Shown here one piece after another: positions 17,705-41,575 of a DNA stretch of 64,000 nt. Under the pieces are notes generated by a model. That model was not told the DNA's origin. It did no database searches and saw nothing but the letters and a program-made list of their open reading frames with translations. A program made the position numbers and the translations under genes. The DNA is from Panorpa germanica (Eukaryota > Arthropoda > Insecta > Mecoptera > Panorpidae). Numbering within the stretch: position 1 is the stretch's first letter; each line of letters opens with the position of its first letter. Location of the stretch: contig CAVMBN010000141.1 in the NCBI GenBank assembly GCA_963678705.1, positions 1 to 64,000 of the forward strand. Reading direction: 5' to 3'.

Positions 17705-17709
17705 ATTTC

Positions 17710-17922: not shown

Positions 17923-18171
17923 CTCCCTCTAAATTTAGACATTCTAACAACAAATTATAATTAATTGAGTGTCAAAAAACATGAAAATATTAATCAAGTT
18001 ATACTACAAGATATTCTAACATATCACTTAACAAAAGAGTTGTAGTTAAACATACCAAGTTTAGATCCTAAGAATTGGAATTTATCTTTTGACAATGCTT
18101 TAGTTAATATATCTGCATATTGATCAGCAGTGCAGTGTAAACACATAGTGTCTTGTTTATATTCACCAATA

Positions 18172-20055: not shown

Positions 20056-20241
20056 TGGTCCACATACGTCAAAATGAACCAGCTCTAGGGGTTAAGTGAC
20101 TCTTAATCCATCACTTTTAAAAGGTAGCCGTGTCTGCTTTCCTTCTTTACAGGTTATGCATTTCAGATTTTCTGTTTTTCCTGATAAAGTTAAATGCTCT
20201 GTGCTATCAGACAATTTTTTCAAAGTTTGGAAATTAAGATG

Positions 20242-21453: not shown

Positions 21454-21585
21454 AGAAGAACAGAAACAGTTTCAACAGCCACGTTTTTTTTTTAAGGTTA
21501 TGTTCACCACTAAAAGTCTTTATTCACTTTTTACTTTTCGAAAAACACTCACTAAACGTCTCTGGGTTTATCTGGGCATATGACC

Positions 21586-21798
21586 TGTTATATTTAGCAG
21601 AAATAAACTAATATTTTATATTAATCAGGTTTATTTTATTAATTAAATGTACACTTGCATTATGATGTCACAGAGTATAGAATTACATAGTACAGTATTA
21701 CAGAGTACAGTATTACCTACAGTATTACCGAGTGTAAAAAGAAAAGATAGAATAGTAGTAGTGTCAATCCCTAGAGGGCGCTAAATTTAAATCCAACA
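21586..21798 (-). repeat. copia 5' LTR
   Basis: 213 bp. This is the upstream LTR of the minus-strand element; transcription would start here. Confidence 0.93.
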
Positions 21799-21976: not shown

Positions 21977-22324
21977 TATATTAGTAGGGTAGTAGAGCGG
22001 GTTCTAGGACAGTTTAGAAGTTGAGTTGGAAATTATTGGTGGTGGGGATGCATTTAGGTCACGATATGCAGAGGGGGCGTGGCTAGACTTAGAAGAATGT
22101 AAAAGGGGGTAATAGTGGGGTGAGGAGTGAGGTGGCGTGGCTAGACAATGTTGGGGTAATAGTGGGGTAATATGAAAGAGTGAGATAGCGATAATAATTA
22201 TTACGTGTGTAATAATTAATATCTAATGGTAAAGAGTGAGATACCGATATTAATTCTTATGTTTGATTTGTTATTGGTTATAAGATTATGACAGTGTTAA
22301 ATTATTTATAACAGTGTATTTATA

Positions 22325-22577
22325 GCGCATTCCTTCGAAATTTGCAAACAGCACATGTTCTCATGAGAAACTTTAGACACAAGCGCATTCCTTCGAAATT
22401 TGCAAACAGCACATGTTCTCATGAGAAACTTCAGACACAAGCGCATTCCTTCGAAATTTGCAAACAGCACATGTTCTCATGAGAAACTTTAGACACAAGC
22501 GCATTAGATCGAATGTAACTTGAACGTAACTTGAAGCACACGTGTTAGCCGGCGTCAGCACATGTTCTCATGAGAAA
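22325..22577. repeat. 58-bp tandem repeats in left terminal region
   Basis: Three full 58-bp units start at 22325, 22383 and 22441, followed by a variant partial unit. Each contains the palindrome TTCTCATGAGAA, close to a heat-shock-element layout. They lie about 340 bp inside the end of the element. This could be a replication or promoter region; no proof. Confidence 0.85.
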
Positions 22578-23977
22578 ATAATATAAATATATAAATTATT
22601 CTTATGCAATATGATAAAACAATATTTTCCAAACGTAGACAAATTTTTTGTTATACATTTTATGTTTTAGTTAAATGTAGGGCCGGATTGGGTATTGTTG
22701 TATTAGATTATTTATTTAAGTATACTTAAAGTTATAATATACGTACATTATATCATTGATGATTCTCAAAGCATACAGTTATTTTTTATGTGTTGTAATA
22801 ATCATAAAGTCTTATAAGTAAGACAATGGTGTTGTTTTACATATATGAGGTTATAACACCACAGTAACTGTTAAAATAGTAGGAGGATATTTTATTATAC
22901 AAATTTATTAGGTAGCGGTTTGATCCATATGTATGAGGCTATATAGGTTGTGGATAATAGTAGAATCATAATTAGCTAAACCAAAAGCTCTAACTTAAGT
23001 TGAAACAAACTTTTTAAAATAAAACTGCTCGAAGGGTCGGGAGCCCCGAGAATTTTATTTATTTTGAATGCGCGGGGATGATAGAATTAAGAATTGATAG
23101 TCTGATGGTAAATATATTATAGTATTAAATAAGTAAAGTGCGACCCTGCTAAATTTTTATATATATATGTATATATAAGTCTAAGAATATGATTTGTGTT
23201 ACATTAAGTATTGTGCAGTTTGTTTATTAAATTGTCTTGCAAAGTCTTGTTCTGAGTTAGTTCTTTTTAAATAACTTGTGTTTTTAAATAATTTAGTGGC
23301 TATTTAGTGCTATTTTAAAAAAAAAAAAAAAATTTTATCAATAATTTCAGTTTGGAAGTGGATAATTATGTGGTAAGTAAATTTTGTATAAGATTTTGTA
23401 TGTCTACAATAAATTTAATAGTAGTTTTCAAATATTTACAGGTGTCTATAGCAGTTTCAACCTAATCTTGAGTTTTTACCGTTTGAACCCTTTTAGACTT
23501 TCATACTTATGAGCAAACAGTTAGGTAAGTTAATTTTTAATACTTTTTAGATAATTTTAATTTAGTTAAAATAATAACAGTTTTAAATGTCAACAGAATA
23601 TTGCTGTGCATATCTGTATTCCGATGATACATTGGATTATACGTGTCCAACAATAGTTTATCCTGGAGTACAAGTAAGTTCTACTTCTTTTGCTTTAGTA
23701 TTTCAAATCCTTATTTATTTACATAATATTTATTTATAGTTATGCAATCATCATATGAAAGAGCGTGCGATTGGTTGTAACAACTACCACCTTGCAGAAA
23801 GAATCTTGGGACAATAATTTTTATGAGTGTTTTATTAAAAATAATATAAATAACCATATTGATTTAAATAATAATTTTAGCCATATATCATCAAAAATAA
23901 ACTTGGAACTGTTGGAACAAGAAATAAAAATTTTGTGCATAGACTTTTTTAAAATTAAATTATACAATAACGCTCAA

Positions 23978-24015
<38 letters not shown>

Positions 24016-24026
24016 CTTATCAAAAA
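22578..24026. other. Polinton left arm, mostly noncoding
   Basis: AT-rich. A short plus-strand exon-like run at 23587-23673 begins MSTEYCCAYLYSDD and ends at a strong donor (GTAAGT). A TA microsatellite occupies 23981-24014. The mirror region is 39534-40974. Confidence 0.4.
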
Positions 24027-24503
24027 ATGGAATCGATTTTTGATTTGGAAGATTTATTATTTGTAAAAAATATTCATATTGATGATAGCGAGCTATTAAA
24101 TTTAGATATTGACCCTTCGCTTTTTGATGAAGATTTTTCATTACCTGAGTTATTAAATTCAGATATTCATATTGATGATAGCGAGCTATTAAATTTAGAT
24201 ATTGACTCTTTGCTTTTTGATGAAGATTTTTCATTACCTGAATTATTAAATTCAGATATTCATATTGATGATAGCGAGCTATTAAATTTAGATATTGACC
24301 CTTCGCTTTTTGATGAAGATTTTTCATTACCTGAGTTATTTAATTCAGATATTGAGATACAGAATATGTCTGAAATTACAACTTCTTTAAACAATGAGGA
24401 TGATTTTAATACAAATTTGACTCCTTCTAAATTGACTGCAGTTCCATTTTTATTTAATGAAGCACCTATGTTTAAAAAAAAGATATGTATTTTATCAAAA
24501 TAG
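24027..24503 (+). CDS. Acidic repeat protein, left arm (fossil)
   Basis: Starts MESIFDLEDLLF and then has three copies of a 31-residue repeat, core IHIDDSELLNLDID...FDEDFSLPELL. It is very rich in Asp, Glu and Leu, with regularly spaced hydrophobic residues, like an acidic activation or protein-docking domain. No family recognised. The mirror copy in the right arm has two units. It overlaps the start of the next frame. Function unknown. Confidence 0.55.
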   Translation: MESIFDLEDLLFVKNIHIDDSELLNLDIDPSLFDEDFSLPELLNSDIHIDDSELLNLDIDSLLFDEDFSLPELLNSDIHIDDSELLNLDIDPSLFDEDFSLPELFNSDIEIQNMSEITTSLNNEDDFNTNLTPSKLTAVPFLFNEAPMFKKKICILSK

Positions 24504-25033
24504 GTTTAAATTGTATTAATCAGTTTGAACCAGAAATTTACATATATAATAAATATAATTTTGGACTAAAGTTAAGTTTATGTGATTATTTTGAGCTTAT
24601 AGAGCATATTAAGCAATTGATTAATATGTTTAATGGTCAATTGGTAATACCATCGAATATATTAATAGGAACAAACTATAAAATAAATATCTTTAATCCA
24701 AATAGTATTGCAATTATTTCAAATTGTAAAACTCAAATATCAGTATTTTTAAATATTTTTGATTTAATACATTTCTTATCCTTAAATGATTATATTAATG
24801 CTATTGGTAAACATTTTTCTGAAATGCAAATTGATTTGTTTAATACATATAATATATTTTTAAATAGTATTGTAATGTATTTAAAAAATAAAAATATTGG
24901 TGTTTCGAAAGAGATTTTGACTCAATTTTTATTTTACGAATGTGAAGAGTTAAATTCTAATGATATATTATTAAAAATGATAATAATTTCAAACATGTCG
25001 TATATATTAGAAGAAATATCAAAACTATTGTAA
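24485..25033 (+). CDS. Unassigned Polinton protein, left arm (fossil)
   Basis: About 180 residues, rich in Ile and Asn, with FGLKLSLCDYFELIEHIKQL near the N-terminus. I associate similar small proteins with insect elements carrying type B polymerases, but cannot name a domain. The Helitron begins 27 bp downstream. Mirror copy at 38607-39116. Confidence 0.45.
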   Translation: MYFIKIGLNCINQFEPEIYIYNKYNFGLKLSLCDYFELIEHIKQLINMFNGQLVIPSNILIGTNYKINIFNPNSIAIISNCKTQISVFLNIFDLIHFLSLNDYINAIGKHFSEMQIDLFNTYNIFLNSIVMYLKNKNIGVSKEILTQFLFYECEELNSNDILLKMIIISNMSYILEEISKLL

Positions 25034-25060
25034 TTACTTAATTTATAATATATATATATA

Positions 25061-28000
25061 CTAGCGGAACCGACAGACGTTGTCCTGTACACACGTCTTT
25101 AATTTCATACTTTTTTTAATGAGCTGAAACAATCTGGACCGCTTTGATGAAAATTATTATTGAAAAGTTATTACTTTGTTAAATAAATAACAGCATCGTA
25201 AATGAAAACTTTAACTCATTTTAATGAAAGGTGAAAAAGCTTGCACTCAAAACATTTTATAACATATATATTTATTTATTTTTAATTTACAAAAACTTAA
25301 TTTAGCGTAATGCCATTGGATGTACAATATTTTTAGTTAGTCCATGAGGAGTATAAACAAACAAACTCGATGGTTTTCCAACTCTGGAACACGCAACGTA
25401 CAATTGGCCGTGAGTAAAACACGGATTTTCTAAATCTAAGCCACAAAATGTCATCGTTTGACCTTGTGACTTATTAATAGTCATAGCATATGCCAAACGG
25501 ATCGGAAATTGTAAGCGTTTAAATGGTATAGGTGAATCTGAAGGAATCATTGGGATCCGCGGTAAAAGTACAATTTCACCTTGGAATTTTCCAGATAAAA
25601 TATTCGCTTCAATAATGTTGCCCATGATTTTTTTTATAACTAATCGCGTGCCATTACACAATCTCGGGGCATTTAAATTACGAAGCAAAATTATAGGTGA
25701 GCCAATCTTCAGTCGCAAATTATGTGGTGGCATTCCAGGTAAATCTAAAGAATTCAAAAATTCTACTGGATAGTTGACCACTTCGTCAGGATCAACAACG
25801 GTGTCAATTGATTTAAATGTAATTTCATTACCAGGCAATGACTGTTGTATTTTAAAATTGATGGCGTCTACATCTAAATTTTTTGCAGCTAAAATAGCTC
25901 GCTCTCGTAGCCATTCATGATTAGTATAGTTATATCTTAAATCTGGAAAGATACTATTTATTAATTCATCTTTGGTAGCCACCATGTTGCAAAAGTTCTC
26001 TGGAAATTTAATAAATTGGGTATCTTCATACAGTTGAATTTTACCGTTGCCAATGTCTAACAATTGTTCAGAGAATCCTGACGCTAATGGATCATTTTGT
26101 AGTTGAACGCGCATATTGATAGTAAGGATCAATTTACTGACACTCCGCCATAGATAAGATTCCTTCAAACATGCGTTTACTTTGTCTGCATATGTCGCAC
26201 GTGGAATTACTGGCAATGTTTGCCTGAAATCACCAGACAGTAGCAGTAGAGCACCACCGAAAAGCCTAGTATTATCTTTGATATCCTTCAGGGACCTGTC
26301 GAGAGCTTCAAGCGAATGCTTGTGGGCCATTGTACATTCATCCCAAATAATAATTTTGCATTTTCTCAAAACTTCAGCCATGCCGGAATGCTTCTTTATG
26401 TTACACATTGCTTCGGGATTTGTATGAACATTCAAAGGTAACTTAAGTGCTGAATGCGCAGTCCGTCCACCATCAAGTAACGTCGCTGCAATGCCTGATG
26501 AAGCAATGGCCAATGCAATATGATTTTGTGATCGAATGCGCGCAAGTATCAGTGAGATGAGAAAGGTTTTACCAGTGCCACCTGGTGCATCAAAAAAAAA
26601 AGAATCCACCTTGTTGTGCTGCAATTGATACGTTAATTTGATCATATACATTTCGTTGTTCAGCTGTAAGCAATTGTTCATTATTAGCAACAAAAGTAGC
26701 CAACGAAGTCTTATCAAAGTGGTGTTCACGTTGAACATCACTGTTGATGATATCTACTGCTGGGCGGTTCGGCGCCGGCATGCCAAAATGGATGAGTGGC
26801 ATGTTTGAAATAAGAATACAAATATCCTCAATCATAATTAAAGCCTCATTGTATATTTCTGCGGAGAATTGAATATCAGGATTTTGATTAGTAATTCTAA
26901 TCCGATGCAAAATATCTTCACTCATTGAGTCTTTATATTTGTTCCAGAGAGCAGATGCTTCAGACGGAAAACACGTTGTTAATATTATTGAAAATAATTG
27001 ACGAATTTGTTGTGGAGAAGAGCTCAGTGCTGCATCTGCAAGTGTGAGATCCCAATGGTTATCATCCTCCAATAAATGTAACTCACGACACGCATCGAAG
27101 AAAGTGTCGTTTAAAATACCATTGACTTTTCGTAAATATTGGAAGGATGTCGGTCCAAGAACATTAACCAATAACAAACGCAAAAAAAAACATTCGCGTT
27201 GCTTAGGATGAACTGTATATAGTCGACTTAAAGTATTTGTCATAAATATGTCGGCGAATCCTGGGACTGGAATCCCTCGTTTTCGTGGTTCCCAATTTTT
27301 CGATTGCTTATTCCATGTAAAAAATTTAGGAACATCAGTATACATTAATGTTTTTGCGAATTGACCAACAACATCTTGTCGATTACAAAGATTGAAAAAT
27401 TCAGTAAGAGTTGTTTTTGGAGCCGTTAATGCTTGTTGTAGTGCAGTCTGTTCTGTAAAATAAACACGCTGTCCGTTTTCAAGATGCACAGCCAAATGTA
27501 TAACTGCAGGATCCCTTTCATGTATAGGAAACGTAAAAATGCGCCAGACAGCTTCATTGCTACTTATGTATCGACCCATTTGATAACGTGTTATTTCGTC
27601 ATTGTCATTTACATTTTGAACAGCAAATATAGCTTTATCACTGCCCTTGTGAACGTACTTACAAATGTATTTGATAGATTTCACCGAACTGCACAGTTCA
27701 ACGTTTATGTGCGCTTTATAGGTTTTGCATAGTAATGGCGAATATGGAACCACCCACCGATTATCAATATCTACTCTTACACCGTTTGACAGTCGCAATT
27801 CATACGATTGACCGCCATTATCTACGTCTCTGCGCCGGTAAGATGGATAACCGTCAATATTGGTGATAGTATCAGTTTGACATGGTTTTGGAAAACGTTT
27901 CGTACATTTTCCATCATTCATGCATGGTGACATCATGTTTAGAGTACCGCATGGACCATGAATCATATTAGTAGTAACAATGTTAAACAGTTCTTGATCA

Positions 28001-30513
28001 ACATTCGGATCTGGAATTTCCGCTGAAATAATTTTGTCAATTTCTTCTGGGCGTACTTTATCCACCAACCAAATCAAAATATGCGCATGAGGTAAACCTC
28101 GTTTTTGCCACTCAACAGAGTAAAGCCAACAACGTGTTTCACCAAAAACCGAGTAATGTGTGATCAAATTCATCAAAGATTTTAATTTTTGTTTAAAGAC
28201 ACGCGCAGTGATATCGTGGCGATGCATCGATGTTTGACCTGACAACAGCAAGTTTTTGATTTCATCCCAATTTGGATTACATGTAAATGTGATAAAAAGA
28301 TCTGGTCGACCGTATGCACGTACGTATGTCATAGCGTCTTGAATATATTCTTGCATATGACGCGGACTACCAATATATGATGATGGGAGAATATATGTGG
28401 TACCGATGTTGTTAATGACGTTTGTTGCATCTACATTACCGATTACTGCATCACGCAAATGAATATACTCTTCAGCTCGAAGTTTTGCTTGATTGAATTT
28501 TATATACCTTAATCTTTCACTTTCAATTTTTACATAAATATCGACGATGTACTGATGAAATAGCTGTCTACAGCGGAGAATATTATTATCTTCATTAGCA
28601 CGAATCATTAACCGATATGCGTTGAAATTCATGGCACTAACTTTCTTGGTCAGTTCTTTACCTGTAAATAAATATAATTATGAGATAAACAAAAATTATT
28701 TATTCAAAAAAAAAATTGTAAGATAATCTATAAGTTGTACCTGTAGTTGGATTCCGTTGTTTAATATTTAAATGATATCCGTCTTCTCCTTCCCAAAATA
28801 TTAACGGATACTGCAAAGCATCGTAAGAACGATGATTGTCTTGAATTATTTGCATCGTATTATCTCTGCGTTGTATGCGAATGTCTCTACGTTCACATGG
28901 GTCACCAGCCATAACAACTGCAACTTCATTAATGGTTGGAACATTATATGTGCCTGCGTGCTCTCCATAGGGTACTTTGTCTGCTTTAATAACAATGACA
29001 TAGTTATCGTTTTGCAGTCTGTTAGAAAGAGTCTTGAACAATTGTACTAATTGGTTATGGTTTTGCAAAAACCTTTCCAAAATGTCCACAATTTCTCGTT
29101 CCTCCATCTGTTCTATATGGTTGTAAACGCAGCGTGTATGTGATTGTTGCTCTTCATTCCCCATAAAATAAATTTGTAAAAATTTTGGATCGGCATCAGG
29201 CATTGGAAGTAACGAACCAATTTGGTGATATACTTGGCCTTGAATTTTGAATGTGGATTCAAAATTACGGCCATCTTCATTATGAATAATTTTTGTTGCT
29301 GCAAATGATGTCATTTGGAAGCATGAATTTAATTTACAAATTTTCCGTAAAAATAATTTCGATTGAGATGTGATTCCAGCTAAAAGCGTTTTTAAAGGTT
29401 CTGGTGGTGGTTTTAGCGGTGGCAGTGATATTTTTCCAGATGCGCAACATAAACCAGCTGATTCACCTTTGTACTTGAAAGCATGACAATGTTGACACTC
29501 TTTGTTCATACTACCAATCGTGATCAATGCATGTGATGAATAATCTATTTCAGGATCATATTCAAACGCGAGACGATTAAGTGATGCTCGTGCCAATGCT
29601 CGATTATCTTGTACTCGCTGTTGGTTACGTTCTCTATGTGCGTTGGTCGCTCGTTGACGTGCCTCTCGTTGTCTTAATGTATTAGCACGAAGACGTTGAG
29701 CACGTTGCTCTAAATTTTCATTTGCACGTGTACATGCAGCTCGATCTCTTAAATTTACATTATCCATAGAATGTTCTTCTACTGTTCTATTCAATCGATG
29801 ATCATGAACTAATTGCGCGTGCTGAGTACGTCGACCAATATTTCTTGCTCTTCCACGAAGACGTGGCAATTTTCTACAAAAATAAAATATTGCAAAATAA
29901 TATACAATTAATATGAGTTACTTATTGATAATGAATTTTTAATTAATTAACTCAAAAGATTTATTATGACAAATTTTAGATAAAGAACATGTAATCGCAT
30001 TTTGTGAGTTTTTTTATTTAATATCTCCAAAAATGAATTAATTGTCAATAAAAATAATTAAAAAAATTCAATCCTCTAACTACACAAATAAACTTGAAGG
30101 TTATGTTGGTTGTTTAAAAAAACATCTGAATTCACAAAATTATTTATACACACTTCAAAACTCTTTAAAAAATAATTACATTTAATATTTTAATCAGCAC
30201 ATGAATTGAATAACAAAATTTTTTTCAAATTAATCGTAGCACCATCTGTCGGGACAAACTAAAATTGAAATAGAATAATATTGAATGCGATGATAGCGCC
30301 GTCCGCCGGATCTAATGTAAAACATTCCAAAATCAACAACTCCTTATAAATAAGAAATTAATTGAAAAAACATTTTCCAGTAGACCAAACTGTAAATCTA
30401 AACCATTCTCGAATCTCCACGAACACACACAAAAAATTTCATCAAAATTGGTCCAGTCGTTTAGGAGGAGTTCAGTCACATACACACGCACACAAGAAAT
30501 ATATATATTAAGA
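25061..30513 (-). mobile_element. Autonomous-type Helitron, 5.45 kb
   Basis: On the minus strand it begins TCTTAATATATATATTTC at 30513 and ends ...CGGTTCCGCTAG at 25061, with the short GC-rich palindrome CGGTTCCG just before CTAG. It sits between A and T. The Polinton right arm keeps the uninterrupted site (around 38590), so both borders are confirmed by comparison. It encodes Rep and helicase. Between 29870 and 30513 is a noncoding 5' region, and 25061-25301 is the 3' region. Confidence 0.95.
25302..29869 (-). CDS. Helitron Rep-helicase
   Basis: Rolling-circle replication protein joined to a Pif1-like helicase, which together nick, unwind and move the Helitron. Exon one (29869-28741) starts MPRLRGRARNIG and has a basic N-terminus and a CQHCHAFKYKGE zinc motif. 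A 79-bp GT-AG intron (28740-28662) follows. Exon two carries RPDLFITFTCNPNWDE, the HUH motif GLPHAHILIWL and the two-Tyr motif YICKYVHKG. The helicase has Walker A DAPGGTGKTF, Walker B IIIWDECTMA, LSGDFRQTLPVIP, TINKSQGQT and YVACSRVGKPS. A run of ten A on the plus strand (26592-26601) puts Rep and helicase in different frames; one base fewer would align them. This is either a recent inactivating slip or a sequencing error. Otherwise the gene looks intact. Confidence 0.93.
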
Positions 30514-30546
30514 TAAATTTAAAATGTATATAATTCTTTTATTTAT

Positions 30547-30695
30547 TTATTAGGGTATAACTACATCCATTAGAAACCATAATATGACATATAATTACAA
30601 TCATAACAGTTTCTTATTTGACATGGAGGACCATCTCTTTGTATGTTTCCTTTGTTATAATGTTTGTAACATAATCGACGTCCTTGTATATTTTG
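30547..30695 (-). pseudogene. Partial second copy of Cys-rich gene, left arm
   Basis: Encodes a tail like the Cys-rich gene at 31747-32121 (GRRLCYKHYNKG, QRDGPPCQIRNC) but diverged and lacking the N-terminal part. A tandem duplicate within the fossil; mirror at 38416-38566. Confidence 0.65.
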
Positions 30696-30825
30696 ATTTT
30701 CTCAAATGGTATAGAATTACCGATAAAATTAAAAGTTATTAGAACATTTGAGAAGAATAATGATATAAGTGTGAATGTTTAGTGACTTGAAAATAATTTC
30801 ATTGTGGGATCGTTGCATTATACAT

Positions 30826-31686
30826 CTAAAAAGAAGAAACAACATGTTAATTTATTGTATATTGAAGATTTGAGTAATGGACATTATTGTTGGATTAAAA
30901 ATATATCAAGATTAATAAGAAGTCAATTTACTAAGCATACTATTAAACAATTTTTGTGTGATGGATGCTTTTAATTTTTTTAACACAGAAGATCAGTTAA
31001 ATAGACATTTAGAATATGATTGCAATAAGATATATACAATCCTTCCTTCTAAGTATAACGCTAAAGATAAATTGGGTAATATGATATCTCAAAACATTTT
31101 AAAATTCGATAATCATAAGAATCAATTACGCGTTCCATTTGTGATATATGGAGATTTTGAAACATTATTAAAACCCATTAGTACTTGTTATCCTGAAACT
31201 AATACATCATTTTCAAATAATATTCAAATTCATGAACCATATTCTTTTGCTTATTATATTAAATGTTCCTTTAATGATTCCTTAAGTAAGTTTGTTACGT
31301 ACAGAGGTATTAATTGCGTTAAAGAATTTATTGAAACAATAACTGAAGACGCTAAACAAATTTATAAAGTCTTAAATAAAGTGAAGCCTTTAAATAAATT
31401 ATCTGATTGGCAAAAACAGGAATATGATGAAGCTTCTATTTGCCATATTTGTGAAGGTATCCTCAATGGTGATAAAGTGTTAGATCATTGTCATTTAACT
31501 GGTAATTACAGAGGAGCTGCTCATAATCATTGCAATTTAAAATTTATACCTGTCATATTCCATAACTTAAGTAATTACGATAGCCATATAATTGTAAAAG
31601 AATTAGGTAATGATAGTGAAAAAATTGAAGTTATTCCAGAAAATAAGGAAAAGTATATATCTTTTACGAAACATATTTTTGTATAG
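30826..31686 (+). CDS. Type B DNA polymerase, N-terminal/exonuclease part, left arm (fossil)
   Basis: Contains YIEDLSNGHYCWIKN and QFLCDGC, then exonuclease motif I (FVIYGDFETLL), LDHCHLTGNYRGAAHNHCN and exonuclease motif II (HNLSNYDSHI). This is the layout of protein-primed polymerases of Polintons and bidnaviruses. It is one of several separated pieces of a broken gene. Mirror at 37422-38150. Confidence 0.85.
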
Positions 31687-31746
31687 AGTGTATATAAATA
31701 AAATTTTATAAATGAAAGAACATGTATTTTATTTATTGAGGTATAT

Positions 31747-32121
31747 TTATTTATTTATTAAGGTATAACTATTTCCATTAGAATCATAATATAAATTAAA
31801 ATTACAATCACAACAGTTTCTTATTTGACATGGAGGTCCATCTCTTTGTATTCTTCCTTTGTTATAATGTTTGTAGCATAATCGACGCCCCTGCATATAG
31901 TGATCTTCTTTTAAATGTATTGGAAGCCGGTTCCAGTTTTGTTCAATATCGGTGGAAAACATTATATAATGCAAAAAGAACTCTGTCGGTAAATAATGTA
32001 ATTCTTCATCAGTAAGATTTCCTAGTAAACACTCATTTTCTTTATATTTTTTTAAAACAGCTCCAACTTTTGAAATCGTTTTCGAAACTTGTTCATGATT
32101 ATTTAAAAATTTATAATCCAT
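31747..32121 (-). CDS. Cys-rich Polinton protein, left arm (fossil)
   Basis: 124 residues starting MDYKFLNNHEQVSKTISKVG. The C-terminal third has GRRLCYKHYNKG, DGPPCQIRNCCDCNFN, a possible metal-binding cluster. No family recognised. It lies just downstream of the capsid-like gene on the same strand. Mirror at 36987-37361. Confidence 0.6.
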   Translation of the reverse strand: MDYKFLNNHEQVSKTISKVGAVLKKYKENECLLGNLTDEELHYLPTEFFLHYIMFSTDIEQNWNRLPIHLKEDHYMQGRRLCYKHYNKGRIQRDGPPCQIRNCCDCNFNLYYDSNGNSYTLINK

Positions 32122-32184
32122 TATTTGGTTATGAGGTGGTTACTCTTTAATGACTTTAAAGATATTAATCATTATTTATAATGG

Positions 32185-33390
32185 TTATGTAATTTTATTA
32201 ACAATTCCAGATAAAGGTTTATACTTAATAATTTTGTCGTGTATAATTAGGGCAAAAGCGCAAACCAAACCAACAATCATTTCTGATGTTTCTAATTCAA
32301 GTCTAATATCCACTGGGGCAGATTTTAGAAATTCTTTCTGTTTTGAACAATCTATAACTATTAGGGGTGCTTTTTCTTTAAAATCTTTTAAATTCAAAAC
32401 AGGGTTTGGATTCTTATCATAGTATGATTTTTGAAAATTTGCATACATTTCATAGGCTACCGAATATTTATTATTATTATAATCTAAGTTTAGATTATCA
32501 TATGGATACATTTCAGAATTTAAGTATAATTTTACGTTTCTCAAATTACATGTATAAAATTTACTGATGTCCTTCGTCATATCATTTTTTGATTCCCTTT
32601 GTAGTCCTAATATAACGTAACGTGGTTTTTCAAGTGAAGTTGTTGTTTTTATTGACCAAACTTGATTAGTTGAACTTGATAAAACAGGATATTCGTATAA
32701 TTCCCACGCTCGAAAACCAATATATAATGATCTATCACGTTCTATTGTTTGCAATAATTTCAATTTTTCTTTGTCTGATACATTAATATGAGGCATTCGC
32801 CATTGTATTTTGTCAATGACTACTTTTGGTAATACATCTTTAGCTGCTGCTATCCAAAGTGCGTTATTATCGTTTTTTGATCGAATTAATATTAATTCAT
32901 GCTTTACTGGTAAAATAATTTTTTCGAAATCTTCACAAAAACCAAATATCGTTTTAAGAGGAATACATACACTGAAGTTTCCATTTTTATCTATTATATT
33001 AGTATCTTTATCGCACCATCCAAAATTTTGAATATGAATATCATTATTATTATGTGAAACATAGCCTTTCATAGTAGATGTTACACCAGGGTTTCTATTT
33101 GAATCAATTTCAACTAAATTTATTTCATATCTTATACTTTCAAATAGGTGTAAAACACCATTTAATATGAATACTGGGGTTGTTTCTGAAGTGTCCTGTA
33201 TTTTTCCTTCAATGTATAAGTAAGATTCCGAGGGTAATGTAAAAACATTATGTTGATTTATTGGGATACGGATTTCGTCATTATTTTCAAAAGTAGTTGT
33301 AGAATATGGATTATATGTATGTATCTCATATTGGCTTACTGATTCATCGAAAACGATTTTATCTTCAATATTAAGCATATGAGCGGTCAT
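32185..33390 (-). CDS. Double-jelly-roll capsid-like protein, left arm (fossil)
   Basis: 401 residues, with NNDEIRIPINQHNVFTLPSE near the N-terminus, then LFESIRYEIN, KIQWRMPHI, FRAWELYEYP and PLIVIDCSKQ. I recognise this as the double-jelly-roll-like protein common in insect virus-related elements; the fold is the one used for capsids in Polintons and their viral relatives. Assignment rests on family memory, not a search. Only eight of 401 residues differ from the mirror copy at 35718-36923. Confidence 0.75.
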   Translation of the reverse strand: MTAHMLNIEDKIVFDESVSQYEIHTYNPYSTTTFENNDEIRIPINQHNVFTLPSESYLYIEGKIQDTSETTPVFILNGVLHLFESIRYEINLVEIDSNRNPGVTSTMKGYVSHNNNDIHIQNFGWCDKDTNIIDKNGNFSVCIPLKTIFGFCEDFEKIILPVKHELILIRSKNDNNALWIAAAKDVLPKVVIDKIQWRMPHINVSDKEKLKLLQTIERDRSLYIGFRAWELYEYPVLSSSTNQVWSIKTTTSLEKPRYVILGLQRESKNDMTKDISKFYTCNLRNVKLYLNSEMYPYDNLNLDYNNNKYSVAYEMYANFQKSYYDKNPNPVLNLKDFKEKAPLIVIDCSKQKEFLKSAPVDIRLELETSEMIVGLVCAFALIIHDKIIKYKPLSGIVNKIT

Positions 33391-33394
33391 TGTA

Positions 33395-33535
33395 GAGTAT
33401 TTATTTTAAATCCTAACGACTTAAGAAACTGTTTATTTTTTAATGTTATCCTCTTAAAAGGCTTTGTTGGACTACGCTGAGTTTGATTAAACGACGAATT
33501 ATATATTGTTTTTAAATTATGACATATACCCATTA
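33395..33535 (-). CDS. 48-codon gene region, left arm (fossil)
   Basis: Mirror of the small frame at 35575-35721, upstream of the capsid-like gene. Slightly diverged from it. Function unknown. Confidence 0.4.
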
Positions 33536-33548
33536 TTGAATCTTTCGT

Positions 33549-33899
33549 ATGCGCAATCTGCAGGAATTTTTTTCTTTTCTAAAATTGATAAGTTCACCTT
33601 CTTCAATAACAATTTTTATAGAAATATTATCTACATATAATTTAGATCCCTGTCAATATTATACAACACCAGGACTTTCTTGGAATTCTATGTTAAAGTA
33701 TACAAGTATTAAATTAGAACTTTTAACAGATATTGATATGTTACATTTTATTAAAAAAGGTATAAGAGGTGGAATATCACAATGCTCTCACAGACATGGA
33801 ATTGCAAATAATAAATATATGTCCAATTATGATTCAAATAAAGATTCTCAATATTTAATGTATTGGGATGCACGTAACTTGGAACGTAATTCAACGTAA
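33549..33899 (+). CDS. DNA polymerase palm piece, left arm (fossil)
   Basis: Begins MRNLQEFFSFLKLIS and includes DPCQYYTTPGLSWNSML, a polymerase palm-region signature. The arm's similarity to the right arm ends inside this piece (33872), where unrelated repeat sequence starts. Mirror at 35218-35559. Confidence 0.75.
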   Translation: MRNLQEFFSFLKLISSPSSITIFIEILSTYNLDPCQYYTTPGLSWNSMLKYTSIKLELLTDIDMLHFIKKGIRGGISQCSHRHGIANNKYMSNYDSNKDSQYLMYWDARNLERNST

Positions 33900-34005
33900 G
33901 CTTACGTTGAATTACGTTCTTACGTTCCCATTACGTTCAAGTTACGTTGAATTACGTTCAAGTTACGTTCCCATTACGTTCAAGTTACGTTGAATTACGT
34001 AGATA
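33882..34005. repeat. Perfect 38-bp palindrome and TTACGTT repeats
   Basis: 33882-33919 is a perfect palindrome centred on AAG|CTT at 33900/33901. It runs into tandem variants of TTACGTTCAAGTTACGTT and TTACGTTCCCA up to about 34003. This lies exactly where the left arm meets the loop. A related motif, CAAGTTACGTTCAAGTTAC, is present in the terminal region of the right arm near 41020. Confidence 0.85.
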
Positions 34006-34044
34006 TAAATTTATACAAAACTTAAACTTAACTTAAAATTAGTA

Positions 34045-35003
34045 CTAAATTTTATAATGTCCCTGTGCTAAAGTACTTATACCATCAGTTAATACATATC
34101 TTTTATTATCATTTTCACTAAGACCTACTTTACTTATCATTTGAGTATAAATTGTATGCTTAATCGATTTAAAGGTATTCATTGTGATCAATAATATGTT
34201 ATCCTGAGATAAACAATTTACATAATCTTTAATATTGATGATCAATAATATGTTATCCTGAGATAAACAATTTACATAATCTTTAATATTGAATTTGTTT
34301 ACAATATTTTTCTTAATTCCTTTTGCTTTAGCTGTGCATGAACCCTCAATATCAATTGCATACATTTTTGACCTTAACCCAACAAACTCCCAAATTATAC
34401 TACCCGCGCATTTATCTTTCATTAAGCCTAATTTAGCTTTGTTCATTAAAGGTAATGAAAATTCATTATTAAATGGATAATTAGATGTATTAAATTTATC
34501 TAGATTACACTTAATATCGTCATATATATCATCTGTTTTAATTTGATATATTAATGAATCTGTATCTGTATACAACAATTTAGCATTACCTTTATAGACT
34601 TTTTTGATGAAATCATAATGAAAATCGTATATTAAATTATAAAAAACTTTAAGTTTTTGCATTTGAATAGCAACTAAGTTTCATGAAATATAGAACAACT
34701 ATGATAGTTTGGTTTACTTATAAGTGTATTAGCACCAATTTTATGTCCTATATTATCACAATGAGTTATTAACTTTACATCGACACGTTTATCTACATTC
34801 TCCATTGTTTTCCCATAAACTGAATTATTCATTAATTTAAAAAAGTCTTTCTCAAATGTATTTGCAGAGTTCTTTCTTTTTAATGTATTTAGATCAATAT
34901 AACTTTTTAACCAATCAGACTGTTTAAATTCCAAAATTCTATGAATTTTATCTATTTTCAGATTATTTTTAAGACATTGCTTTAACGATCTATAGTGAAG
35001 CAC
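34045..35003 (-). CDS. DNA polymerase B catalytic pieces in loop (fossil)
   Basis: Contains the motif-B-like FFKLMNNSVYGKTMEN (about 34850-34800) and motif C YTDTDSLIYQ (about 34580-34550), the metal-binding Asp pair of family B polymerases. Found only in the loop, so the element has a single copy of this part. Broken. Confidence 0.85.
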
Positions 35004-35217
35004 ATAATTATACTTGTTATTTAGATTTGGTATTAATTTAACGTCATTTGTTTTAATGCAAGGTGGTTTAATATTTTCAGCACAGAAAGGTAGATCATTC
35101 GACTTCTAATATATAACCAACATCTGAGTTATCTTCAATAGCTTCTACATTAAATGTTTGTAATTTATATGTATCTAACCATTTAAATCCCTTATGTGGT
35201 AAATATTGACTCATAGC

Positions 35218-35559
35218 TCAACCATATAAGTTATTTGCATCCCAATACATTAAATATTGAGAATCTTTATTTGAATCATAATTGGACATATATTTATTAT
35301 TTGCAATTCCATGTCTGTGAGAGCATTGTGATATTCCACCTCTTATACCTTTTTTAATAAAATGTAACATATCAATATCTGTTAAAAAATCTAATTCAAT
35401 ACTTGTATACTTTAACATAGAATTCCAAGAAAGTCCTGGTGTTGTATAATATTGACAGGGATCTAAATTATATGTAGATAATATTTCTATAAAAATTGTT
35501 AATGAAGAAGGTGAACTTATCAATTTTAGAAAAGAAAAAATTTCCTGCAGATTGCGCAT
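35218..35559 (-). CDS. DNA polymerase palm piece, right arm (fossil)
   Basis: Ends YLMYWDANNLYG, which is polymerase motif A (DxxNLYG), and contains the same DPCQYYTTPGLSWNSML block as the left arm. The loop's motif B and C pieces follow it on the same strand. Confidence 0.8.
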   Translation of the reverse strand: MRNLQEIFSFLKLISSPSSLTIFIEILSTYNLDPCQYYTTPGLSWNSMLKYTSIELDFLTDIDMLHFIKKGIRGGISQCSHRHGIANNKYMSNYDSNKDSQYLMYWDANNLYG

Positions 35560-35574
35560 ACGAAAGATTCAATA

Positions 35575-35721
35575 ATGGGTATATGTCATAATTTAAAAAC
35601 AATATATAATTCGTCGTTTAATCAAACTCAGCGTAGTCCAACCAAGGCTTTTAAGAGGATAACATTAAAAAATAAACAGTTTCTTAAGTCGTTAGGATTT
35701 AAAATAAATACTCTACAATGA
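35575..35721 (+). CDS. 48-codon protein, right arm (fossil)
   Basis: MGICHNLKTIYNSS ... KQFLKSLGFKINTLQ: a small basic protein. Its TGA overlaps the ATG of the capsid-like gene (ATGA at 35718-35721), suggesting co-expression of the two. Function unknown. Confidence 0.5.
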   Translation: MGICHNLKTIYNSSFNQTQRSPTKAFKRITLKNKQFLKSLGFKINTLQ

Positions 35722-36923
35722 CCGCTCATATGCTTAATATTGAAGATAAAATCGTTTTCGATGAATCAGTAAGCCAATATGAGATACATACATATAATCC
35801 ATATTCTACAACTACTTTTGAAAATAATGACGAAATCCGTATCCCAATAAATCAACATAATGTTTTTACAATACCCTCGGAATCTTACTTATACATTGAA
35901 GGAAAAATACAGGACACTTCAGAAACAACCCCAGTATTCATATTAAATGGTGTTTTACACCTATTTGAAAGTATAAGATATGAAATAAATTCAGTTGAAA
36001 TTGATTCAAATAGAAACCCTGGTGTAACATCTACTATGAAAGGCTATGTTTCACATAATAATAATGATATTCATATTCAAAATTTTGGATGGTGCGATAA
36101 AGATACTAATATAATAGATAAAAATGGAAACTTCAGTGTATGTATTCCTCTTAAAACGATATTTGGTTTTTGTGAAGATTTCGAAAAAATTATTTTACCA
36201 GTAAAGCATGAATTAATATTAATTCGATCAAAAAACGATAATAACGCACTTTGGATAGCAGCAGCTATAGATGTATTACCAAAAGTAGTCATTGACAAAA
36301 TACAATGGCGAATGCCTCATATTATTGTATCAGACAAAGAAAAATTAAAATTATTGCAAACAATAGAACGTGATAGATCATTATATATTGGTTTTCGAGC
36401 GTGGGAATTATACGAATATCCTGTTTTATCAAGTTCAACTAATCAAGTTTGGTCAATAAAAACAACAACTTCACTTGAAAAACCACGTTACGTTATATTA
36501 GGACTACAAAGGGAATCAAAAAATGATATGACGAAGGACATCAGTAAATTTTATACATGTAATATGAGAAACGTAAAATTATACTTAAATTCTGAAATGT
36601 ATCCATATGATAATCTAAACTTAGATTATAATAATAATAAATATTCGGTAGCCTATGAAATGTATGCAAATTTTCAAAAATCATACTATGATAAGAATCC
36701 AAACCCTGTTTTGAATTTAAAAGATTTTAAAGAAAAAGCACCCCTAATAGTTATAGATTGTTCAAAACAGAAAGAATTTCTAAAATCTGCCCCAGTGGAT
36801 ATTAGACTTGAATTAGAAACATCAGAAATGATTGTTGGTTTGGTTCGCGCCTTTGCCCTAATTATACACGACAAAATTATTGAGTATAAATCTTTATCTG
36901 GAATTGTTAATAAAATTACATAA
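35718..36923 (+). CDS. Double-jelly-roll capsid-like protein, right arm (fossil)
   Basis: 401 residues, uninterrupted, with the same landmarks as 32185-33390 (IRIPINQHNVFT, FRAWELYEYP, PLIVIDCSKQ). Followed by the Cys-rich gene on the same strand. Confidence 0.75.
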   Translation: MTAHMLNIEDKIVFDESVSQYEIHTYNPYSTTTFENNDEIRIPINQHNVFTIPSESYLYIEGKIQDTSETTPVFILNGVLHLFESIRYEINSVEIDSNRNPGVTSTMKGYVSHNNNDIHIQNFGWCDKDTNIIDKNGNFSVCIPLKTIFGFCEDFEKIILPVKHELILIRSKNDNNALWIAAAIDVLPKVVIDKIQWRMPHIIVSDKEKLKLLQTIERDRSLYIGFRAWELYEYPVLSSSTNQVWSIKTTTSLEKPRYVILGLQRESKNDMTKDISKFYTCNMRNVKLYLNSEMYPYDNLNLDYNNNKYSVAYEMYANFQKSYYDKNPNPVLNLKDFKEKAPLIVIDCSKQKEFLKSAPVDIRLELETSEMIVGLVRAFALIIHDKIIEYKSLSGIVNKIT

Positions 36924-36986
36924 CCATTATAAATAATGATTAATATCTTTAAAGTCATTAAAGAGTAACCACCTCATAACCAAATA

Positions 36987-37361
36987 ATGGATTATAAATT
37001 TTTAAATAATCATGAACAAGTTTCGAAAACGATTTCAAAAGTTGGAGCTGTTTTAAAAAAATATAAAGAAAATGAGGGTTTACTAGAAAATCTTACTGAT
37101 GAAGAATTACATTATTTACCGACAGAGTTCTTTTTGCATTATATAATGTTTTCCACCGATATTGAACAAAACTGGAACTGGCTTCCAATACATTTAAAAG
37201 AAGATCACTATATGCAGGGGCGTCGATTATGCTACAAACATTATAACAAAGGAAGAATACAAAGAGATGGACCTCCATGTCAAATAAGAAACTGTTGTGA
37301 TTGTAATTTTAATTTATATTATGATTCTAATGGAAATAGTTATACCTTAATAAATAAATAA
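36987..37361 (+). CDS. Cys-rich Polinton protein, right arm (fossil)
   Basis: 124 residues, mirror of 31747-32121, with the C-terminal cluster CYKHYNKG...CQIRNCCDCN. It begins 63 bp after the capsid-like stop. Confidence 0.6.
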   Translation: MDYKFLNNHEQVSKTISKVGAVLKKYKENEGLLENLTDEELHYLPTEFFLHYIMFSTDIEQNWNWLPIHLKEDHYMQGRRLCYKHYNKGRIQRDGPPCQIRNCCDCNFNLYYDSNGNSYTLINK

Positions 37362-37421
37362 ATATACCTCAATAAATAAAATACATGTTCTTTCATTTAT
37401 AAAATTTTATTTATATACACT

Positions 37422-38150
37422 CTATACAAAAATATGTTTCGTAAAAGATATATACTTTTCCTTATTTTCTGGAATAACTTCAATTTTTTCACTATCATTA
37501 CCTAATTCTTTTACAATTATATGGCTATCGTAATTACTTAAGTTATGGAATATGACAGGTATAAATTTTAAATTGCAATGATTATGAGCAGCTCCTCGGT
37601 AATTACCAGTTAAATGACAATGATCTAACACTTTATCACCATTGAGGATACCTTCACAAATATGACAAATAGAAGCTTCATCATATTCCTGTTTTTGCCA
37701 ATCAGATAATTTATTTAAAGGCTTCACTTTATTTAAGACTTTATAAATTTGTTTAGCGTCTTCAGTTATTGTTTCAATAAATACTTTAACGCAATTAATA
37801 CCCCTGTACGTAACAAACTTATTTAAGGAATCATTAAAGGAACATTTAATATAATAAGCAAAAGAATATGGTTCATGAATTTGAATATTATTTGAAAATG
37901 ATGTATTAGTTTCAGGATAACAAGTACTAATGGGTTTTAATAATGTTTCAAAATCTCCATATATCACAAATGGAACGCGTAATTGATTCTTATGATTATC
38001 GAATTTTAAAATGTTTTGAGATATCATATTACCCAATTTATCTTTAGCGTTATACTTAGAAGGAAGGATTGTATATATCTTATTGCAATCATATTCTAAA
38101 TGTCTATTTAACTGATCTTCTGTGTTAAAAAATTAAAAGCATCCATCACA
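37422..38150 (-). CDS. DNA polymerase exonuclease part, right arm (fossil)
   Basis: Carries FVIYGDFETLL and HNLSNYDSHI, as in the left arm. The oppositely oriented capsid-like and Cys-rich genes lie between this block and the palm piece at 35218-35559. Confidence 0.8.
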
Positions 38151-38415
38151 CAAAAATTGTTTACTAGTACGCTTAGTAAATTGACTTCTTATTATTCTTG
38201 ATATATTTTTAATCCAACAATAATGTCCATTACTCAAATCTTCAATATACAATAAATTAACATGTTGTTTCTTCTTTTTAGATGTATAATGCAACGATCC
38301 CACAATGAAATTATTTTCAAGTCACTAAACATTCACACTTATATCATTATTCTTCTCAAATGTTCTAATAACTTTTAATTTTATCGGTAATTCTATACCA
38401 TTTGAGAAAATCAAA

Positions 38416-38566
38416 ATATACAAGGACGTCGATTATGTTACAAACATTATAACAAAAGAAACATACAAAGAGATGGTCCTCCATGTCAAATAAGAAACTG
38501 TTATGATTGTAATTATATGTTATATTATGATTCTAATGGATGTAGTTATACCCTAATAAATAAATA
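38416..38566 (+). pseudogene. Partial Cys-rich gene copy, right arm
   Basis: Mirror of 30547-30695. Confidence 0.6.
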
Positions 38567-38606
38567 AAAGAATTATATACATTTTAAATTTATATATATA
38601 TATATA

Positions 38607-39116
38607 TTATAAATTAAGTACATACAATAGTTTTGATATTTCTTCTAATATATACGACATGTTTGAAATTATTATCATTTTTAATAATATATCATTAGAA
38701 TTTAACTCTTCACATTCGTAAAATAAAAATTGAGTCAAAATCTCTTTCGAAACACCAATATTTTTATTTTTTAAATACATTACAATACTATTTAAAAATA
38801 TATTATATGTATTAAACAAATCAATTTGCATTTCAGAAAAATGTTTACCAATAGCATTAATATAATCATTTAAGGATAAGAAATGTATTAAATCAAAAAT
38901 ATTTAAAAATACTGATATTTGAGTTTTACAATTTGAAATAATTGCAATACTATTTGGATTAAAGATATTTATTTTATAGTTTGTTCCTATTAATATATTC
39001 GATGGTATTACCAATTGACCATTAAACATATTAATCAATTGCTTAATATGCTCTATAAGCTCAAAATAATCACATAAACTTAACTTTAGTCCAAAATTAT
39101 ATTTATTTTATATGTA
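38607..39116 (-). CDS. Unassigned Polinton protein, right arm (fossil)
   Basis: Mirror of 24485-25033; shares INMFNGQLVIPSNILIG and the C-terminal helix-like segment. Function unknown. Confidence 0.4.
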
Positions 39117-39533
39117 AATTTCTGGTTCAAACTGATTAATACAATTTAAACCTATTTTGATAAAATACATATCTTTTTTTAATAACATAGGTGCTTCATT
39201 AAATAAAAATGGAACTGCAGTCAATTTAGAAGGAGTCAAATTTGTATTAAAATCATCCTCATTGTTTAAAGAAGTTGTAATTTCAGACATATTCTGTATC
39301 TCAATATCTGAATTAAATAACTCAGGTAATGAAAAATCTTCATCAAAAAGCGAAGGGTCAATATCTAAATTTAATAGCTCGCTATCATCAATATGAATAT
39401 CTGAATTTAATAACTAAGGTAATGAAAAATCTTCATCAAAAAGCGAAGGGTCAATATCTAAATTTAATAGCTCGCTATCATCAATATGAATATTTTTTAC
39501 AAATAATAAATCTTCCAAATCAAAAATCGATTC
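39117..39533 (-). CDS. Acidic repeat protein, right arm (fossil)
   Basis: Mirror of 24027-24503 with two rather than three 31-residue units. A TA microsatellite at 39549-39607 lies directly before it. Confidence 0.45.
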
Positions 39534-39547
39534 CATTTTTTGATAAG

Positions 39548-39609
<62 letters not shown>

Positions 39610-40974
39610 TTGAGCGTTATTGTATAATTTAATTTTAAAAAAGTCTATGCACAAAATTTTTATTTCTTGTTCCAACAGTTCCAAGTTTATTTTTGATGAT
39701 ATATGGCTAAAATTATTATTTAAATCAATATGGTTATTTATATTATTTTTAATAAAACACTCATAAAAATTATTGTCCCAAGATTCTTTCTGCAAGGTGG
39801 TAGTCGTTACAATCATAAATAAATATTATGTAAATAAATAAGGATTTGAAATACTAAAGCAAAAGAGGTAGAACTTACTTGTACTCCAGGATGAACTATT
39901 GTTGAACACGTATAATCCAATGTATCATCGGAATACAGATATGCACAGCAATATTCTGTTGACATTTAAAACTGTTATTATTATAACTAAATTAAAATTA
40001 TCTAAAAAGTATTAAAAATTAACTTACCTAACTGTTTGCTCATAAGTATGAAAGTCTAAAAGGGTTCAAACGGTAAAAACTCAAGATTAGGTTGAAACTG
40101 CTATAGACACCTGTAAATATTTGAAAACTACTATTAAATTTATTGTAAACATACAAAATCTTATACAAAATTTACTTACCACATAATTATCCACTTCCAA
40201 ACTGAAATTATTGATAAAATTTTTTTTTTTTTTTTTAAATAGCACTAAATAGCCACTAAATTATTTAAAAACACAAGTTATTTAAAAAGAACTAACTCAG
40301 AACAAGACTTTGCAAGACAATTTAATAAACAAACTGCACAATACTTAATGTAACACAAATCATATTCTTAGACTTATATATACATATATATATAAAAATT
40401 TAGCAGGGTCGCACTTTACTTATTTAATACTATAATATATTTACCATCAGACTATCAATTCTTAATTCTATCATCCCCGCGCATTCAAAATAAATAAAAT
40501 TCTCGGGGCTCCCGACCCTTCGAGCAGTTTTATTTTAAAAAGTTTGTTTCAACTTAAGTTAGAGCTTTTGGTTTAGCTAATTGTGATTCTACTATTATCC
40601 ACAACCTATATAGCCTCATACATATGGATCAAACCGCTACCTAATAAATTTGTATAATAAAATATCCTCCTACTATTTTAACAGTTACTGTGGTGTTATA
40701 ACCTCATATATGTAAAACAACACCATTGTCTGACTTATAAGACTTTATGATTATTACAACACATAAAAAATAACTGTATGCTTTGAGAATCATCAATGAT
40801 ATAATGTACGTATATTATAACTTTTAGTATACTTAAATAAATAATCTAATACAACAATACCCAATCCGGCCCTACATTTAACTAAAACATAAAATGTATA
40901 ACAAAAAATTTGTCTACGTTTGGAAAATATTGTTTTATCATATTGCATAAGAATAATTTATATATTTATATTAT

Positions 40975-41227
40975 TTTCTCATGAGAACATGTGCTGACGC
41001 CGGCTAACACGTGTGCTTCAAGTTACGTTCAAGTTACATTCGAACTAATGCGCTTGTGTCTAAAGTTTCTCATGAGAACATGTGCTGTTTGCAAATTTCG
41101 AAGGAATGCGCTTGTGTCTAAAGTTTCTCATGAGAACATGTGCTGTTTGCAAATTTCGAAGGAATGCGCTTGTGTCTAAAGTTTCTCATGAGAACATGTG
41201 CTGTTTGCAAATTTCGAAGGAATGCGC
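40975..41227. repeat. 58-bp tandem repeats in right terminal region
   Basis: Mirror image of 22325-22577, also three full units plus a variant. Confidence 0.85.
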
Positions 41228-41575
41228 TATAAATACACTGTTATAAATAATTTAACACTGTCATAATCTTATAACCAATAACAAATCAAACATAAGAATT
41301 AATATCGGTATCTCACTCTTTACCATTAGATATTAATTATTACACACGTAATATATAATATCGCTATCTCACTCTTTCATATTACCCCACTATTACCCCA
41401 ACATTGTCTAGCCACGCCACCTCACTCCTCACCCCACTATTACCCCCTTTTACATTCTTCCAAGTCTAGCCACGCCCCCTCTGCATATCGTGACCTAAAT
41501 GCATCCTCACCACCAATAATTTCCAACTCAACTTCTAAACTGTCCTAGAACCCGCTCTACTACCCTACTTATATT

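Follow-up and report, generated by a model that had tools for sequence, protein, structure and literature searches.

A Polinton-derived palindrome in the genome of Panorpa germanica, probably integrated as one unit and belonging to an amplified family

How a transposable element whose two halves mirror each other comes to lie in a genome is the question raised by a locus of the insect Panorpa germanica (Mecoptera, Panorpidae). The window, that is, the whole stretch of DNA analysed, comprises 64,000 nucleotides (positions 1-64000 of contig CAVMBN010000141.1, assembly GCA_963678705.1), and a Polinton-like element with inverted arms occupies its positions 21983-41569. The contig is 82,999 bp long and is called C157 here, the other C numbers being contigs of the same 464-Mb genome. 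An earlier note, made from the letters alone, had described this element as a near-perfect palindrome inserted in that very form. The follow-up presented here leads to the view that it is probably a Polinton-derived inverted dimer, integrated as one unit, which belongs to an amplified family and would have been formed by snap-back and hairpin copying.

The mirrored element and its insertion

Comparison of the window with itself by BLAST gave three inverted blocks which mirror each other across the element at 98.9-99.1% identity: 21983-23737/39815-41569 (99.09%, 16 mismatches in 1755), 24163-25060/38595-39493 (99.0%, 8 in 899) and 30498-33880/35228-38608 (98.88%, 36 in 3383). The stretch 23775-24260 was also aligned to its mirror, at 94% and with a 24-base gap difference. 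Mirrored stretches of several kb at 99% are far above chance, and the tips of the element, AGTAGGG...CCCTACT, lie directly inside both copies of TATATT, as the near-perfect palindrome flanked by this hexamer had been described. The two gene-bearing arms of about 6.4 kb announced in the same description were found as mirrored, gene-bearing stretches, with the correction that the left one is also split by a 5.4-kb Helitron. This insertion was recognised by its Rep and PIF1 helicase domains (PF14214, 9.1e-59; PF05970, 1.4e-62; Pfam) and by minus-strand ends reading TC...CTAG, as usual for a Helitron. Without the Helitron the element measures about 14.15 kb and, measured from the dyad, its arms reach about 6.5 and 7.7 kb, little single-copy DNA remaining. 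Each arm contains a double-jelly-roll capsid gene, a 130-codon open reading frame (ORF), a fragment of a capsid-adjacent ORF and pieces of a gene resembling family B DNA polymerase (PolB), and on both sides the capsid block splits this polymerase gene.

The best evidence on insertion comes from the flanks. A query made by joining them found an empty site at C2:5010427-5010934, within a repeat, where a single TATATT is present and the match is gap-free at 98% over all 508 bp. Two further matches were full-length at 89%, and nearly all the others listed, shorter and at 80-93%, also span the joint (best 40 of 849 candidates). A non-palindromic element between the same TATATT flanks, which had been named as the finding that would speak against insertion as a dimer, did not occur among them. 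Furthermore, both ends were read for 15 palindromes, the present element among them, and in 12 the 6-bp duplications match. The sequences are TATTGG at C2:13.08M, GACTTG at C12, CCCATG at C5:8.30M, GTCGTT at C3:16.08M (by eye), and TATTCG at C6:19.26M and AACTAT at C8:0.45M, these last two read by eye from the flanks with tips 8 bases longer; C4:4.47M, C6:15.67M, C17, C19 and C2:1.30M each have their own. Six of the 15 (C1:0.92M, C4:4.47M, C6:15.67M, C17, C19 and C2:1.30M) are palindromic by mirrored marker coordinates only, and the tip pairs C102:12060, C8:18329695 and C1:13512523, with neither a duplication nor an independent sign of a palindrome, are counted outside the 15. The linear elements C135 and C4:24.26M show one duplication each. 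Since the TATATT pair, the empty site and the duplications of 11 other palindromes all point the same way, the element was inserted as a palindromic unit, in agreement with the earlier note.

The centre of the element is marked by an array of 11-bp units (GAACGTAACTT and its complement), which between 33882 and 34000 reverses orientation at about 33901, with only one pattern match (33882) left of the dyad. At this point 22 of 30 base pairs match; when 202 stretches of 200 bp were drawn at random outside the element, one reached this value. The local centre of symmetry is here, not in the middle of the loop. The array also marks the centre of C10 and C23, where the matched arms end at differing points. 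The 1.36-kb loop of the original description was considered as a snap-back loop and this candidate was dropped, given the inverted array at its left edge and the differing cuts in C10, C23 and the present copy. The stretch is indeed unmatched; most simply, this piece of about 1.35 kb would be mostly inner sequence of the right arm, the counterpart of which was lost from the left arm beside the symmetric centre. At the junction, position 33880, at most about 27 left bases were matched along with the right side (best 40 of 1365 candidates, window excluded), so that the deletion in the inner left arm looks private to this copy. The stretches of the polymerase gene that encode motifs B (NNSVYGKT) and C (YTDTDSL) are confined to 34048-35105, inside the unmatched part, just as had been noticed. 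Within it, 34677-35105 matches PF03175 at 9.1e-06, below cut-off (25.3 against 25.8 bits), and the DNA polymerase family phrog_1907 at 1.5e-04.

Linear and palindromic relatives

A search of the genome for non-palindromic relatives and for further palindromic copies, recommended along with the first description, found both. The left 341 bp of the element have 95-99% matches at no fewer than 39 other places (best 40 of 910 candidates), one of which is its own right tip, both ends of a linear element on C135 being also among them. This linear Polinton (C135:284910-304388) spans 19.5 kb with 470-bp terminal repeats and encodes an rve integrase (2.8e-16), a Pox_A32 ATPase (5.1e-08), a double-jelly-roll capsid protein (5.3e-110), a phospholipase-A2-like protein and a PolB-like ORF of 1,148 codons homologous to the PolB pieces of the present element. 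It also holds an ORF with retrotransposon-type gag and aspartyl protease (C135:288068-289456), possibly an insertion explaining its extra length. Other linear copies are shorter; one of them (C5:19199188-19214115; 14.9 kb) has integrase and ATPase once each among the matches listed, and the linear copies measured thus span 14.9-19.5 kb.

Integrase matches were all at 97-100% identity (best 124 of 2558 candidates); 34 of the 124 form 17 inverted pairs with starts at most about 4 kb apart, and 90 do not. From the single-copy ATPase and open 321-codon integrase matches, dozens of them at 97-100%, the linear family too looks young. Beside these many linear Polintons, palindromic relatives were counted by hand at more than 40 loci, a figure composed of the 17 integrase pairs, three more integrase pairs, the polymerase pairs and the palindromes read directly; the majority were inferred from search coordinates only, the underlying matches being the best of longer lists. 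Palindromes of the C17 type measure 15.74-15.75 kb, and the tips and the polymerase and integrase markers are mirrored exactly in C1:0.92M, C4:4.47M and C6:15.67M and to within two bases in C17.

The 11-bp array is found at the centre, in both orientations, in each of the 14 palindromic relatives whose sequence was read that far. In C135, the one linear Polinton read for this feature, it consists of 11 units in a single orientation, between the ATPase gene and a 443-codon ORF which precedes the integrase gene, 7.4 kb from the right tip. The order tip, PolB, integrase, array is common to the C2 palindrome and C135, and the integrase gene plus its 5' side is 99.5% alike between them over 1100 bp. 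Other modules differ by palindrome, with the capsid gene in the present element, the ATPase in C3 and the integrase in C2, each inside mirrored stretches. The proposition that the ATPase is absent from palindromes (none of 40 listed matches lay in a close inverted pair) was dropped on finding it, at 97%, in the left arm of C3 inside a mirrored stretch. Two irregular members were also recorded: the palindrome C6:24391874-24405636, with mirrored outer integrase copies and a third, inner one at 24397792, and C248:630642-637030, where the C-terminal part of PolB occurs three times in tandem and once inverted within one element.

Two polymerase types can be distinguished. A query with motif C gave 24 matches in open frames of 1,280-1,284 codons, all 24 in inverted pairs, and 10 inverted pairs have such an open frame on both sides (best 150 of 1209); among these open-frame palindromes, sequence was read for the centre of C6:19.74M. 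By contrast, only 5 of 45 matches of the C135 type in frames of at least 1,200 codons, and 12 of all 150 matches, sit in converging pairs within 8 kb (best 150 of 1526). Among the matches listed, one type is thus long and open only in inverted pairs, and the other is mostly single. The pieces in the present element, where the gene is broken, show 33-63% identity to the 1,148-codon ORF of C135 (tblastn).

Finally, the arms of several copies were compared for joint change. Those of C2:13080038-13095310 are 100% identical over 7590 bp, in two pieces, and this palindrome has zero substitutions relative to C12:14001758-14017008 over 5433 bp of the left arm and over 3995 bp of the centre, there with 22 gap positions. 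When C5:8297189 is set against these two, the outer arm shows 15 substitutions and 7 insertions or deletions in about 5 kb, of which 14 and 6, respectively, are present in both C5 arms, as are all three changes in 1.6 kb of inner arm (23 of 25 in total), a comparison that excludes the centre (extra repeat copies in C5) and the alignment ends. Spacing between the polymerase and integrase markers agrees between the arms, to one base or better, in 10 of the 11 palindromes for which all four markers are listed, and 13 of the 17 integrase pairs have equal arm scores. Since young copies change in both arms and old integrated arms differ mostly singly, the equalising of arms seems to act before insertion and afterwards not at all or weakly, possibly in different degrees at different loci.

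Possible origins of the palindromes

The preferred account starts from an ordinary linear Polinton, which would replicate from its ends by protein priming. At the mid-element 11-bp array the growing or displaced strand may fold back (snap-back) and be copied as far as the tip from which it came, so that the polymerase side forms a hairpin; when this hairpin is replicated, a palindrome would result that bears a proper terminal repeat at both of its ends. Such a course, fold-back at the array and copying to the tip, would explain the anatomy described above. A Polinton integrase, either its own or supplied in trans by linear copies, would insert the palindrome with a 6-bp duplication. During the mobile stage the arms could be kept identical as the hairpin folds and is repaired and as strands switch repeatedly at the centre; after integration, point mutations, insertions and deletions at the centre would drive them apart, as in the present copy, while exchange with linear relatives would account for mosaic arms. 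The resemblance to snap-back or defective viral genomes that had been suggested for this locus is plausible as far as snap-back goes, the array being central in the 14 palindromic relatives and mid-element in the one linear copy read for it; the term defective need not fit the whole family, because some palindromes have open polymerase frames in both arms.

A further step, which we propose tentatively and hold to be somewhat short of probable, is that the palindromic Polintons form a lineage able to propagate itself, its polymerase open in both arms and its normal form a closed-end hairpin. Each round of copying would remake one arm from the other, so that both arms would evolve as one gene set and modules derived from linear elements (capsid, ATPase, integrase) would spread to both arms before insertion.

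Several results weigh against this account, in whole or in part. No matching duplication was found in 3 of the 15 palindromes (C152, C11 and C1:0.92M), and the flanks of C11 are themselves mirrored, which makes it either a fold-back of the assembly or an inverted structure of greater extent. Marker spacing is unequal in one of the 11 palindromes (C9:16.13M; 4335 and 1207), arm scores are unequal in 4 of the 17 integrase pairs, and the present element differs from C152 by 68 one-armed and 11 symmetric changes (sum of seven segments). As regards the parental form, C2 has no match to the 443-codon ORF of C135, its polymerase is broken and, in short stretches, about 73-77% alike to that of C135, and the arms are mosaics, a simple copying back of one half not being seen base for base. 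Within the present element, the C135 integrase gave no match at E 1e-5, nor did the C135 ATPase; as relatives of the C135 and C2 types have an integrase match, the present copy is a derivative and not a complete Polinton member. When Pfam (to E 10), PHROGs, NCBIfam and the PDB sequences were searched with the 1,148-codon ORF of C135, none gave a match to a polymerase, and Pfam and PHROGs gave endonuclease VII only. Its PolB label is an indirect one, drawn from its identity to the pieces of the present element, the PF03175 match below cut-off, phrog_1907 and the polymerase motifs.

Two observations concern C11 separately. Linear-type polymerase matches are mirrored immediately outside its tips, at C11:823622 and C11:841012, so that this palindrome is nested in a larger inverted structure. 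Moreover, the 288 symmetric differences that separate its capsid block from that of C152 had been considered as a concerted capsid exchange, an idea left unused because of the mirrored flanks.

The alternative that survives best is that palindromes are made anew, time after time, by snap-back from linear Polintons, with no palindromic lineage and with arm symmetry reflecting mere newness. Linear copies are plentiful, 90 of the 124 integrase matches lying outside close inverted pairs; the array is a shared hot spot, and some converging pairs (C1:5331645/5338924 and C1:8965355/8970991, known from coordinates only) have the linear-type polymerase. It also fits that capsid, ATPase and integrase modules vary between palindromes and are nevertheless mirrored within each of three. 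What tells against repeated origin is that all 24 palindrome-type polymerase frames of at least 1,280 codons are in inverted pairs, so that no linear parent of this polymerase is seen among the matches listed, and that C2 and C12 look like one palindrome at two sites. On balance we consider repeated origin rather unlikely.

Inverted duplication in the chromosome after a normal insertion, with gene conversion keeping the arms alike, would be expected to produce mirrored flanks such as those of C11 and of the tip pair C1:13512523. It is very improbable in view of the 12 palindromes with a 6-bp duplication outside both arms and the exact empty site of the present element, nor can chromosomal conversion be strong when old integrated arms diverge, by about 1% here. 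That the palindrome is a fold-back artefact of assembly is likewise very improbable, for although the contig is short (82,999 bp), carries two exact copies of a direct repeat of 11,091 bp and breaks off within a second such element, the arms are about 1% apart, one of them holds a Helitron, the flanks, which an artefact would mirror, are unlike, and many relatives with duplications sit on contigs of 13.8-30.6 Mb.

Gene content, surroundings and known systems

The features of the element are collected in Table 1. The 247-codon ORF of C135, of which a fragment is retained in each arm, lies before the capsid gene there and has no Pfam match; by its position it is presumably a minor capsid gene, and the fragment came in together with the capsid block. 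Nothing above the Pfam cut-off was found for the 130-codon ORF and no Pfam match for the 185-codon ORF. The N-terminal PolB part of the right arm matches PF02945 at 6.7e-05 (23.2 against a cut-off of 23.6) and phrog_423, endonuclease VII, at 3.9e-06; in all, the element matches endonuclease VII and a single DNA polymerase family (1.5e-04) in PHROGs, besides weak matches to unknown families. An adenovirus-like cysteine protease had no Pfam match among the ORFs scanned, no search aimed at it having been made, and no relative of the capsid gene was found in IMG/VR.

Table 1. Features of the palindromic element (window coordinates)
Feature	Coordinates	Strand	Basis or remark
Target site duplication TATATT, left	21977..21982	.	
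Left arm	21983..33880	+	Inverted alignment to right arm; split by Helitron 25061-30497
58-bp tandem repeats by left tip	22324..22505	.	Mirror 41039-41228
ORF with 93-bp tandem repeats, left arm	23943..24500	+	Mirror repeats 39303-39493
185-codon ORF of unknown function, left arm	24476..25030	+	Partial mirror at 38610-39107
Helitron, later insertion, left arm only	25061..30497	-	Domains and ends
PolB N-terminal part, mirror copy	30919..31683	+	
130-codon ORF, mirror copy	31750..32139	-	
Capsid gene, mirror copy, left arm	32188..33405	-	
247-codon ORF fragment, mirror copy	33536..33634	-	tblastn, 88% over 33 amino acids
PolB motif A part, mirror copy	33540..33896	+	Runs into central array
Central array of 11-bp units	33881..34000	.	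Dyad about 33901
Unmatched inner part of right arm, PolB palm, motifs B and C	34001..35227	-	
PolB motif A part, right arm	35221..35568	-	No Pfam match
Right arm, part having a mirror copy	35228..41569	-	Inverted alignment
3' end of 247-codon ORF, right arm	35474..35572	+	tblastn, 94% over 33 amino acids
Double-jelly-roll major capsid gene, right arm	35703..36920	+	PF21738, 7.7e-110
130-codon ORF adjoining capsid gene, right arm	36969..37358	+	Found in linear Polinton too
PolB N-terminal part, endonuclease VII-like motif, right arm	37425..38132	-	tblastn to C135 ORF
Target site duplication TATATT, right	41570..41575	.	

Other features lie around the element. The 11,091-bp direct repeat occupies contig positions 1-11091 and 55394-66484 (1-8607 and 55394-64000 in the window) and is either a very young segmental duplication or an effect of assembly. 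At C157:71595-82999 a second, different element of the family begins; the contig breaks off in the inner arm of this element without reaching its centre, as though assembly had halted near a palindrome. A Copia-type retrotransposon (17709-21795; 211-bp direct repeats, 99.5% alike) ends about 180 bp before the palindrome, and a piggyBac-type transposase (DDE_Tnp_1_7) split over two frames lies at 43841-45399. An open 785-codon frame at 47458-49812 consists of ten 213-bp tandem repeats and has a Pfam CARD match at 1.2e-06 with no single stretch passing.

The copying of Polintons has so far been scarcely testable, integrated copies being usually met as finished products. Linear and palindromic forms in one genome, some of them very young and with clean duplications, constitute a sequence record of replication products, in which it can be tested directly whether protein-primed polymerases copy by snap-back and through hairpins in a eukaryote genome. 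Among the titles and abstract openings listed by searches of an open-access library, none described Polintons integrated as palindromes, and papers outside it may do so.

Among known systems, Polinton/Maverick elements are described in passages of PMC6431247 and PMC12220804. Where the latter gives lengths, terminal repeats of Polinton-like viruses measure several hundred bp, the filter of that study admitting up to 8 kb (PMC12220804), and some are called 'long' in passages of PMC4642659 that state no length. The likeness to this group lies in the linear relative, with its rve integrase, A32-like ATPase, double-jelly-roll capsid, PolB-like ORF, terminal repeats and 6-bp duplication, and the present copy shares its tips, capsid gene and PolB pieces. 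Unlike Polinton/Maverick elements, each terminal repeat here is an entire gene-bearing arm, and integrase and ATPase matches are absent from the present copy.

Hairpin or symmetric derivatives are known both from adenoviruses and from linear plasmids that replicate by protein priming. Derivatives of yeast pGKL1 reportedly include hairpin and palindromic forms of a protein-primed linear plasmid, and a deletion derivative of the Neurospora kalilo plasmid was reportedly described by Vierula and Bertrand in 1992 (cited in PMC11071308). These plasmids resemble the present palindromes in forming inverted dimers or hairpins of one end of a protein-primed linear replicon; their derivatives are extrachromosomal, whereas the palindromes described here are inserted between target duplications and have multiplied in the genome. 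Symmetric defective adenovirus genomes were reportedly found by Daniell in 1976, and in them one genome end is reported to be likewise copied as an inverted repeat, other genes being lost. Such genomes arise in infection and are unintegrated, whereas some of the palindromes of P. germanica keep open polymerase or integrase frames, and what resembles a defective genome may here have given rise to a separate family of transposons.

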